Positions 6,575-15,436 of a stretch of DNA of 64,000 nt are shown piece after piece. The stretch is from the NCBI RefSeq assembly GCF_003259525.1, contig NZ_QLLO01000002.1:1-64000 (forward strand), given 5' to 3'. Source of the stretch: Olleya aquimaris. GTDB taxonomy: Bacteria; Bacteroidota; Bacteroidia; Flavobacteriales; Flavobacteriaceae. Each line of letters opens with the position of its first letter. Position 1 is the stretch's first letter. The notes below the pieces were generated by a model. It saw only the letters and a list, made by a program, of their open reading frames with translations, had not been told where the DNA came from and searched no databases. The position numbers were made by a program, and so were the translations under genes.

Positions 6575-7882
6575 CTAACCACCAGAAGCTAATTGCATTA
6601 AAATTGTGCAACCTATTGCAGCTAAAGTTCCTACAGCATATCCAACAACTGCTAACAGGACACCAACCGTAGCTAAAGAAGGATGAAATGCAGATGCTAC
6701 AATTGGCGCAGATGCTGCTCCACCTACATTGGCTTGACTACCTACTGCTAAAAAGAAATAAGGCGCTTTAATAAGTTTAGCAACACCAATAAGCAATAAA
6801 GCATGAATAGTCATCCAAACTAAGCCAACAGCTATTAAACCTAAATTGTCAAAAATGGAAGCGATATCAATTTTCATTCCGATAGTTGCAACTAAAATGT
6901 ATATAAAAACACTGCCAAATTTACTGGCTCCAGCACCTTCATAGTTTCTTGCTTTGGTAAAGGATAGCACTATAGCTAAAACAGTAGCAATACTAATCAT
7001 CCAGAAAAAAGTACTATCTAGAAAAGTAAGTGTGTTTTTCCAGGTTGGTGACTCAATATTAGAGACAACTTCTCCAAAAAATGGTGCTAAAAAATTAGCA
7101 CCTAAGTGTGCAATACTCACAGTTCCAAAACCTATTGCACCTAATATCATTAAATCTGTTAGTGACGGATTTCGTTTTACACTTTCAGAAAAAGTAGATA
7201 CTTTTTCTTTTAGTTCTTCTATAGAAGATGTATCTGCTTTTAACCATTTGTTTATTCTAGCGCGTTTACCAATTCCTATTAATAACAAAGCCATCCAAAT
7301 GTTAGCTACGACTATGTCTACAAAAACCATTTTTCCGTATTCTGCTTGGTTGTATTCAAATATTTCAAGCATAGCAGTTTGATTGGCACCACCACCAATC
7401 CAACTTCCTGCTAGTGTAGATAAACCTCTCCAAACAGCATCTGGACCAGCACCACCAACTGTTTCTGGTGAGAAAATAGAAATTAATAATATAGCAATTG
7501 GACCACCAATAACAATACCTATAGTACCTGTAAAAAACATGACTAATGCACGCCAACCTAAATTAAAAACAGCCTTTAGGTCAATACTTAGAGTCATTAA
7601 TACTAATGCAGCAGGTAGTAAATAACGACTTGCAACATAATATAAATTGGTTTTGTGTTTAATAACATCTCCAGCATCACTTGTGGTTTCCCATTCTGGA
7701 GCAATTAATCCGATGGTTGTTAATACTGCAGGTAGCATATATGCCATAAAAAGACCTGGTACAATCTTGTAAAATTTTTCCCAAAAGCCACCTTTTAAAG
7801 ATTCGGTATAAAAAATCAAACCTAAAGCTAGCATCAATACGCCAAAAATAACGGTGTCGTTGGTAAATAGTGGTTCACTCAT
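6575..7882 (-). CDS. DUF819 family integral membrane protein
   Basis: 435 residues with about 12 hydrophobic segments. It reads as a DUF819 (YjcL-like) inner-membrane protein of the CPA/AT-type transporter class: LFTNDTVIFGVLMLALGLIF at the start, GSWIGGGANQTAM in the middle, and VGSQANVGGAASAPIVASAF near the C-terminus, a glycine- and alanine-rich signature that resembles substrate or ion sites of paired-repeat transporters. The substrate is unknown. The gene is monocistronic, with divergent structured-RNA genes upstream. Confidence 0.88.
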   Translation of the reverse strand: MSEPLFTNDTVIFGVLMLALGLIFYTESLKGGFWEKFYKIVPGLFMAYMLPAVLTTIGLIAPEWETTSDAGDVIKHKTNLYYVASRYLLPAALVLMTLSIDLKAVFNLGWRALVMFFTGTIGIVIGGPIAILLISIFSPETVGGAGPDAVWRGLSTLAGSWIGGGANQTAMLEIFEYNQAEYGKMVFVDIVVANIWMALLLIGIGKRARINKWLKADTSSIEELKEKVSTFSESVKRNPSLTDLMILGAIGFGTVSIAHLGANFLAPFFGEVVSNIESPTWKNTLTFLDSTFFWMISIATVLAIVLSFTKARNYEGAGASKFGSVFIYILVATIGMKIDIASIFDNLGLIAVGLVWMTIHALLLIGVAKLIKAPYFFLAVGSQANVGGAASAPIVASAFHPSLATVGVLLAVVGYAVGTLAAIGCTILMQLASGG

Positions 7883-7948
7883 AATGTTAGTTTATTTATC
7901 GCAAAATAATCAAATAAAATGGTTAACAAAAGGTTTAAAATTAAAGTT

Positions 7949-7963
7949 TGGCACAACAATTGA
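7949..7963 (+). promoter_or_regulatory. Sigma-54-like promoter of RNA copy 1
   Basis: TGGCAC, AACAA, TTGA fits the -24/-12 layout TGGCAC-N5-TTGC except for the last C. Counting 24 bases from the GG puts +1 at 7975, the first base of the predicted closing stem. The same element at the same distance precedes copy 2. Confidence 0.6.
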
Positions 7964-7974
7964 TTTATATAGAG

Positions 7975-8088
7975 TGTAATCAATTATGATGACTTTTTAT
8001 TACAAGGTGTGGTTACCTTAACAAAAACGAGTAATGATTACATTTGGTTGGTTAGTATGGAAAAGCACCCTTTTTAGGGTGCTTTTTC
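7975..8088 (+). ncRNA. Candidate structured small RNA, copy 1
   Basis: About 114 nt from the predicted start to the end of the terminator. Three stems are visible. The closing stem is TGTAATCA (7975-7982) with TGATTACA (8035-8042). An inner hairpin is AAGGT-GTGGTT-ACCTT (8004-8019). The terminator is AAAAGCACCC-TTTTTA-GGGTGCTTTTT. Single-stranded blocks TATGATGACTTT, ACGAGTA and TTTGGTTGGTTAGTATG are shared with copy 2. No convincing open reading frame lies inside. I infer a stand-alone regulatory RNA. Which Rfam family it belongs to, if any, cannot be told from the sequence alone. Confidence 0.72.
8061..8088 (+). terminator. Terminator of RNA copy 1
   Basis: Perfect stem AAAAGCACCC / GGGTGCTTTT around TTTTTA, followed by a T run. 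Confidence 0.88.
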
Positions 8089-8141
8089 TATTTATAACTT
8101 TAGATTTTTTTTAACACTTAAGCGTGTAATTATCTGTGATT

Positions 8142-8156
8142 TGGCACGACAATTGT
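8142..8156 (+). promoter_or_regulatory. Sigma-54-like promoter of RNA copy 2
   Basis: TGGCAC, GACAA, TTGT. The spacing is the same as in copy 1, and the predicted +1 at 8168 again falls on the first base of the closing stem. Confidence 0.6.
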
Positions 8157-8167
8157 AATATAGAAAG

Positions 8168-8282
8168 TGTAATTACTTATGATGACTTTCTTTCTAGGTG
8201 TGGTTACCTAATTGAAACGAGTAGTAATTATCATATTTTTGGTTGGTTAGTATGAAAAAGCATCCTTTTAGGATGCTTTTTC
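8168..8282 (+). ncRNA. Candidate structured small RNA, copy 2
   Basis: About 115 nt, paralogous to the RNA at 7975. The closing stem is TGTAATTACT (8168-8177) with AGTAATTA-T-CA (8223-8233). The inner hairpin is TAGGT-GTGGTT-ACCTA (8195-8210). The terminator is AAAAAGCATCC-TTTTA-GGATGCTTTTT. Compared with copy 1, paired positions change together (C-G to T-A in the closing stem, A-T to T-A in the inner hairpin, C-G to T-A in the terminator), while the loop GTGGTT and the single-stranded blocks are unchanged. That pattern indicates selection on RNA structure. Confidence 0.72.
8255..8282 (+). terminator. Terminator of RNA copy 2
   Basis: Perfect stem AAAAAGCATCC / GGATGCTTTTT around TTTTA. It lies 23 bp from the end of the converging hydrolase gene. 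Confidence 0.88.
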
Positions 8283-8304
8283 TGTTTTATTAAGTGTAGT
8301 TTGA

Positions 8305-9231
8305 TTATTTGTTGATAAACAAAACTATGCTATCAATAAGCTCTGGTGCTAAAGGTCTTTGTGATTCGTTATAAGATTTAGAATTGTCTAAATCGCCACC
8401 AATAATTGTTACTAGCACATGATTCATGTTTTCAATAATCTTTAATTCTGCTTTTGGTGATGCTTCTTTTAAAAGCAAAGCTTCAGCTTCACTTACTTGT
8501 AAATCTTTGGTTCCGTTAATGATTAATGAAGGCATGTCTAAAGTCTTCATTATTTCAGTTGGATTATAGGTCATCCAATTCATTATAAATTTCTGAACAT
8601 CTAGATTAAAGATTGAAGATAGTGCCAATGGGTAATCTGTAGTTGTTTTTCCTTCCTTTAAAATTTTAAACACACGTTTAGTGTCTTCTGTAAATTGCGG
8701 AGCAGTTTTTTCTACTTGTTCTAAAATAACATTATCTATAGTTTGACCAGCTCCTGCTAAGGATACAAAACCATCTGCTTTACCTTTTGCAGCAAGCATA
8801 CCAACCAAACTACCTTGACTATGTCCTACGACAAATATTTTATTATACTTGTTTTGCTGTTTAAAGTAGTCAATAACAGAGGACGCATCTGTAACAAAGT
8901 CGTCAAACATAATGTCTTTATCCACCTTGTTTTCTCGTATTTGTTTTACAACGCGTTTATCATATCTAAAGGTTGCAATATTATTAGTAGTTAAACCAAT
9001 TGCTAGTTTTTTTAGGGTATTACTTTTTAAAAAATTCTGATTTCCGTTTCTATCTGTCGGTCCAGATCCAGCAATTATAATAGCTAGATTAGGCTTGTCA
9101 GTATTATTTGGAAGTAATAATGTACCTTCTATATGCTTATTTATAACTAGGTCTTGAGAAGAATAATCCTGTTCTTGAGCAATTACTGAAACAGAAAACA
9201 AGGTAATAAATACTAGAAAATAGGTTTTCAT
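8305..9231 (-). CDS. Secreted or periplasmic alpha/beta hydrolase
   Basis: 308 residues with a signal peptide (about 18 residues, ending VIAQ). Alpha/beta-hydrolase fold: oxyanion segment IIIAGSGPTDRNGNQ, nucleophile elbow GHSQGS (S138), acid region SLIINGTKDLQVS and catalytic histidine in NMNHVL. This is the dienelactone-hydrolase/prolyl-oligopeptidase-like S9 type that Bacteroidota export. The natural substrate (ester or peptide) cannot be inferred. It stands alone, with long noncoding stretches on both sides. Confidence 0.88.
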   Translation of the reverse strand: MKTYFLVFITLFSVSVIAQEQDYSSQDLVINKHIEGTLLLPNNTDKPNLAIIIAGSGPTDRNGNQNFLKSNTLKKLAIGLTTNNIATFRYDKRVVKQIRENKVDKDIMFDDFVTDASSVIDYFKQQNKYNKIFVVGHSQGSLVGMLAAKGKADGFVSLAGAGQTIDNVILEQVEKTAPQFTEDTKRVFKILKEGKTTTDYPLALSSIFNLDVQKFIMNWMTYNPTEIMKTLDMPSLIINGTKDLQVSEAEALLLKEASPKAELKIIENMNHVLVTIIGGDLDNSKSYNESQRPLAPELIDSIVLFINK

Positions 9232-15332: not shown

Positions 15333-15436
15333 TGTAATAAAATTTAATATTAATTATTTAATTGGTTGCAAAGATGGTGCCATTAAATTTAATAATCGCT
15401 ATTTATTTGGTTTATTTTCAATTATTTACGTTTTGA

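Follow-up and report, generated by a model that had tools for sequence, protein, structure and literature searches.

The window analysed here is the whole 64,000-nt stretch of Olleya aquimaris DNA, in which two units of about 150 bp each lie in tandem on the plus strand between a DUF819 gene and an alpha/beta hydrolase gene. The first-pass annotation had described two alignable blocks in a gap devoid of coding sequence. Both observations hold, as copies A and B align from promoter to terminator and no frame of 80 aa or more is listed in the gap that contains them, between 7882 and 8305. In each unit the element TTTGGCAC-N5-TTG is followed by a predicted start about 13 nt past the TTG, then by a folded domain, by TTGGTTGGTTAG and by an intrinsic terminator. 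The motif TGGCAC-N5-TTG occupies 7949-7962 in copy A and 8142-8155 in copy B, and the transcription starts proposed earlier fit the -24/-12 geometry of sigma-54 promoters, the predicted positions (about 7975 and 8168) falling at the closing stem. The features of the locus are as follows.

6575-7882, minus strand: DUF819 gene, divergent neighbour upstream of both units
7947-7963, plus strand: sigma-54-type promoter (-24/-12) of copy A, TTTGGCACAACAATTGA; same motif in 29 of 30 relatives retrieved with a promoter-less model
7975-8089, plus strand: copy A RNA, predicted length about 115 nt, from fold, alignment and covariation; covariance-model match 7974-8089
7975-7982, plus strand: copy A closing stem, 5' strand TGTAATCA; two double-changed pairs in this helix (helix 1)
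8004-8019, plus strand: copy A inner hairpin AAGGT-GTGGTT-ACCTT, from the covariation alignment
8035-8042, plus strand: copy A closing stem, 3' strand TGATTACA, from the covariation alignment
8044-8055, plus strand: copy A invariant tail TTGGTTGGTTAG, from the alignment, the relatives and a 12-mer search of the home genome
8060-8089, plus strand: copy A intrinsic terminator, from the fold; three double-changed pairs
8140-8156, plus strand: sigma-54-type promoter of copy B, TTTGGCACGACAATTGT, from the sequence and the relatives' loci
8168-8283, plus strand: copy B RNA, predicted length about 116 nt, from fold, alignment and covariation; covariance-model match 8167-8283
8195-8210, plus strand: copy B inner hairpin TAGGT-GTGGTT-ACCTA, from the covariation alignment
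8239-8250, plus strand: copy B invariant tail TTGGTTGGTTAG, from the alignment and the 12-mer search of the home genome
8254-8282, plus strand: copy B intrinsic terminator, from fold and covariation
8305-9231, minus strand: alpha/beta hydrolase gene, convergent neighbour downstream of both units

A role as cis-acting leaders was rejected because the next gene downstream, that of the hydrolase, is convergent. Peptide coding was also considered and discarded: by eye, each copy has a frame whose beginning is open (VI[NT]YDDFL...), but this frame lacks a start codon at that point and its sequence diverges following indels. The element was found in all 10 Olleya genomes searched, in 2-4 tandem copies per genome, and a DNA search of the home genome at E<=0.001 returned no copy beyond A and B. 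In the alignment, copies standing first and copies standing last in an array show rather consistent differences in the promoter spacer and in the segment preceding the tail, so that A and B look like old paralogs and not like the product of a recent duplication.

Both copies fold better than dinucleotide-shuffled controls, with z-scores of -5.64 for copy A (0 of 200 shuffles folding as well) and -4.27 for copy B (1 of 200). Covariation was assessed on an alignment of 26 copies (25 distinct) from the 10 genomes of the genus, for which RNAalifold yielded a consensus of 31 pairs in five helices, with 99.0% of 774 cells paired; this consensus is somewhat favoured, being derived from the tested alignment itself. 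Double changes affect seven pairs and 30 cells and are distributed over the closing stem (two pairs), the UUUC/GAAA helix (one), the hairpin (one) and the terminator (three). The paired substitutions initially reported for three stems are thus real and extend to all 26 copies; the UUUC/GAAA and UAU/GUA helices are two short inner additions made by RNAalifold. The covariation, as looked for in a structured RNA gene, stands above the controls in which the partner columns were slid by 1-3 positions (0-2 double-changed pairs, 42-53% paired). Of 500 letter shuffles, 2 attained seven double-changed pairs and 43 the observed count of further pair types. In the single-sequence minimum free energy structure of copy A, the 5' strand of the closing stem pairs with the GGUUGGUUAG tail and not with its own 3' strand; the closing stem therefore rests on the alignment and not on copy A taken singly. 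A wider alignment, in which at least three rows are misaligned at the tail, gave a consensus restricted to the hairpin and the terminator (17 pairs, 12 of them with double changes).

The covariance-model search beyond the window that the first-pass annotation had proposed covered 397 family genomes, using a model built from the RNA part alone without promoter columns, and relatives were found across these genomes. The count of 125 genomes at E<=0.001 is not used further, since the weakest matches include some that look like terminators only. In the 30 loci retained as the best by genome, three of which belong to the home genus, the promoter was searched with the string TGG[CT]A[CTG]-N5-[TC]T[GA], which occurs in shuffled sequences at a rate of 0.5% per 70 nt. 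The near-constant -24/-12 element looked for upstream of a sigma-54-dependent sRNA, TTTGGCA[CT]-N5-TTG, was found 84-99 nt before the tail in 29 of the 30 loci (the exception being L057), and the positions left loose by the search string are uniform in 29 of 29: TT in front, C at the fourth position and TTG at the end. All 10 genomes of the genus carry the corresponding sigma factor gene, rpoN. A search for dyads upstream of the sRNA promoters returned mainly ATGATATCAT-type dyads, which were set aside as probably belonging to the divergent neighbour gene.

As also proposed, the locus was compared to Rfam 15. At the gathering threshold only tRNAs were matched, neither the window nor 15 relatives giving any other hit; ranking by E-value added 24 sub-threshold matches with E of 0.044 or worse, among which Flavo-1, one of the Rfam families, does not appear. 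Searches of the open-licence PMC literature, for the tail sequence as well as for studies of related sRNAs, brought up no description of the family. The RNA family, seen in about 50 genera belonging to a large family of marine bacteria, is new to Rfam. The promoter in 29 of 30 relatives, rpoN in 10 of 10 genomes, the covariation and the lack of an Rfam match together make a pair of stand-alone structured RNAs with RpoN-type promoters the best reading of the sequence, and the interpretation given initially is supported to that extent. The wider family, the tail as its most conserved element and the recurrence of this tail after clpB had been missed.

Across genera the stems change completely, while the tail is retained and the loop GUGUGGUUAC, or a variant of it, is retained in many cases, so that UUGGUUGGUUAG, located just before the terminator, is the most conserved part of the RNA. 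The range was delineated with the pattern TGGCAYN5TTG-N70..100-TTGGTTGGTTAG, which occurs in 67 of 299 genomes and 53 of 236 genera of the family, with no match to the reversed pattern in any row; by eye, at least five of the 67 genomes (G021, G099, G110, G206, G301) carry it at the 3' end of a protein gene. A class-wide sample including only nine genomes of the family gave a single match in 295, the home genome itself, and the group taken to be Flavobacterium gave one in 199 genomes; the assignment of this group rests on that match, which over its displayed part is the same as a sequence of Flavobacterium microcysteis. A scan of named genomes yielded at least 117 stretches with this pattern. 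The 80 named among the matches listed are nearly all Flavobacteriaceae or unnamed Bacteroidia and include Winogradskyella, Psychroserpens, Gelidibacter, Lacinutrix, Algibacter, Kordia and Bizionia; matches in Providencia (L076), a Bacilli MAG (L102) and a deltaproteobacterial MAG (L125) were set aside as due to chance before the later counts. Among the matches listed, 114 stretches were kept, 106 with one exact copy and eight with 2-4 copies.

Clustering of the neighbouring proteins in these 114 stretches and the window revealed a conserved locus. The downstream hydrolase cluster, on the opposite strand throughout, is shared by 64 of the 114 stretches among the matches listed and by the window. 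Upstream, one protein family reading by eye like a band-7 protein is present in 55 stretches, and the mixed cluster holding DUF819 has 23 entries, both among the matches listed. A second location beside uvrA was seen in eight stretches among the matches listed (Altibacter, Flavobacterium, Neptunitalea and others). In Altibacter lentus, which is included in the 114, the sigma-54-like motif TGGCAC-N5-TTG falls there within the final codons (WHEGW) of a protein-coding gene (L067:2224-2976), and the tail and terminator follow its stop codon; a 204-aa part of the protein has only a borderline Pfam match, DUF1827. L168 and, judging from its letters, L169 hold a stand-alone unit at the same place. 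Tails TTGGTTGGTTAG with terminators also follow two genes (L067:3161-4510 and L168:5396-6646) whose products of 416-449 aa have a signal-like start, an arginine/serine-rich end and no Pfam match.

The home genome contains six exact sites of the 12-mer tail and none of the reversed control: two belong to the sRNAs, one to the clpB 3' end, and three lie in or antisense to coding frames, one of these assigned by eye. The association with clpB was surveyed by a protein search of 60 family genomes, which found ClpB in 57, and the best-scoring 30 of these 57 loci were examined. Within 150 nt past the clpB stop codon the tail is present exactly in 11 of these 30 loci, with up to one mismatch in 16 and with up to two in 21, the shuffle probability at two mismatches being 0.0063; it was found in none of the other nine at this tolerance, and on the other strand in none of the 30. 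Upstream of clpB, 20 regions chosen by the analyst (L307-L326), three of which come from genomes without the tail, were inspected, and TGG[TC]-N7-TTG was observed within 140 nt in 18 of the 20 against 0.09 expected. The motif is still there in two of the three tail-less clpB genes, so tail and promoter are not tied to each other. The published set of selected sigma-54 (SM4) promoters includes that of clpB in Flavobacterium psychrophilum (PMC9723704). Palindromes such as GACTAAAAGTC and GACATTTTGTC were also noticed in 18 of the 20 regions, exactly 24 nt before the promoter motif in 13 of them; they are probably binding sites of an enhancer-binding protein. Palindromes of this type (GACA-N-GTC) precede the sRNA promoters in only 2 of 107 cases among the matches listed, and the sRNAs and clpB would therefore need different activators.

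The availability of the tail for interactions was estimated on 100 RNAs (reduced from 130) among the matches listed. The mean unpaired probability of the tail is 0.54, versus 0.37 with a shuffled 5' domain, and the tail is at least 0.7 unpaired in 21 of 100 real RNAs versus 0 of 100 controls; the 5' domain alone gave z below -2 in 26 of 60 among the matches listed. Candidate targets were searched in the 10 genomes of the genus as exact complements CTAACCAACC of 10 nt of the tail and judged by eye, without orthology clustering. A total of 163 sites was obtained versus 98 for the reversed pattern. Subtraction of the 26 own copies leaves 137 and that of the clpB sites seen about 132, roughly 1.3-fold above a control whose dinucleotides differ from those of the tail complement. 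In 80 distinct contexts examined among the 163 matches, 43 sites are only antisense to a long frame, 20 lie inside a sense frame, five are own copies, four belong to clpB and 11 have a start codon nearby in the sense direction; no recurring gene was seen by eye among these 11 start-proximal contexts of exact 10-mers. An exact complement of the full 12-nt tail was observed in the home genome (C7:141457), about 260 nt inside a gene reading by eye like Rho, and a related 10-mer site occurs in another genome of the set (G003).

We read the tail as the putative active site of a new sigma-54-driven sRNA family. The balance of probability tilts slightly towards A and B being stand-alone regulatory sRNA genes that are driven by sigma-54, induced by stress and active in trans through a tail shared with the clpB 3' end. 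Each copy would combine its own RpoN promoter, a variable folded 5' domain, the 12-nt tail and an intrinsic terminator. Under stress, an enhancer-binding activator would fire the RpoN polymerase and thereby release a pulse of RNA of about 115 nt, which would act in trans via the tail, perhaps with assistance from the UGGUUA loop of the hairpin, and most likely through short, G-U-tolerant pairing with mRNAs resulting in reduced translation. The clpB mRNA, also placed behind a sigma-54-type promoter, would be processed at its 3' end to give the same tail; as both carry this tail, the same signal might originate from two sources in the stress response. One and the same 12-nt sequence connects the stand-alone sRNAs with a chaperone mRNA, at its 3' end.

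Gammaproteobacterial sRNA genes with -24/-12 promoters, sometimes in several copies, include Qrr of Vibrio and GlmY/GlmZ. The Olleya family reads as a multicopy sigma-54 sRNA of this kind, but belongs to another phylum and displays no sequence match in Rfam. Within the Bacteroidota, the account of FopS in Bacteroides thetaiotaomicron describes short, paralogous sRNAs that are induced by bile salts, have a sequence in common and include a member originating from an mRNA 3' end (PMC11697453). As described there, FopS nevertheless differs in its sigma-ABfr promoters and in a seed located in the 5' part, whereas the Olleya promoters are of sigma-54 type and the invariant block precedes the terminator. 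In Flavobacterium psychrophilum, the sRNA Rfp36 stands behind a sigma-54 (SM4) promoter and Rfp18 is structured and conserved, both features being reminiscent of the present family (PMC9723704). Identity with either, compared by description only, is unlikely because the promoter-plus-tail pattern occurs in just 1 of the 199 genomes taken as Flavobacterium. The preference for base pairing comes from the parallel with known sRNAs, above all FopS, and not from target evidence.

Protein binding is a close rival to base pairing, and it is quite possible, if on the less probable side, that the tail (with the loop UGGUUA) is the site of an RNA-binding protein that the tandem sRNAs titrate or deliver, as CsrB and RsmY do, the clpB 3' end being one mRNA ligand. 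Such a site would agree with a tail conserved while the 5' domain changes completely, with the presence of UGGUUA in both loop and tail, with the recurrence of the tail before terminators after clpB and the secreted-protein genes, and with complementary sites that are only weakly in excess and show no recurring target in the 80 of 163 contexts. However, by eye, several Winogradskyella members among the matches listed keep the tail but lack the loop motif. RbpB, the RRM protein bound by FopS according to the same account (PMC11697453), is ruled out as the partner, given that its RRM_1 family is absent from 10 of 10 genomes of the Olleya genus while the Bacteroides control was positive. A related and rather doubtful proposal is that UUGGUUGGUUAG constitutes a 3'-terminal address tag of the flavobacterial sigma-54 stress response, carried by the sRNAs and the clpB mRNA and read by one RNA chaperone; if true, the tag would be a handle for finding the sRNA chaperone of the Flavobacteriaceae.

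It is unlikely that the tail is a cis-acting 3'-end element aiding termination or protecting the 3' end, with sRNAs active elsewhere or mere by-products. Its position a few nt before an intrinsic terminator, in the sRNAs and clpB alike, would suit this role, but just three of the six exact sites in the home genome precede terminators, of which the genome has far more, so the tail does not belong to terminators in general; nor would this role explain a covarying, self-contained RNA that has a promoter of its own. A functionless mobile or repeat element, or an untranscribed relic, is very improbable. The tandem arrangement would suit it, but the conserved neighbourhood and promoter, the compensatory changes, the retention of copies in all 10 genomes of the genus, the limited number of two in the home genome and the lack of any match to the element in phage and plasmid collections speak against it.

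On the preferred reading of trans-acting sRNAs, the family provides a compact, testable entry to post-transcriptional control in Flavobacteriaceae. Elsewhere in the window, a sigma-54-like TGGCAC-N5-TTGC is located at 15368-15382 on the minus strand, some 50 nt ahead of the start codon of a gene for a cold-shock-like protein. The home genome has two full-consensus sites of this type, this one and another that falls within a coding stretch.
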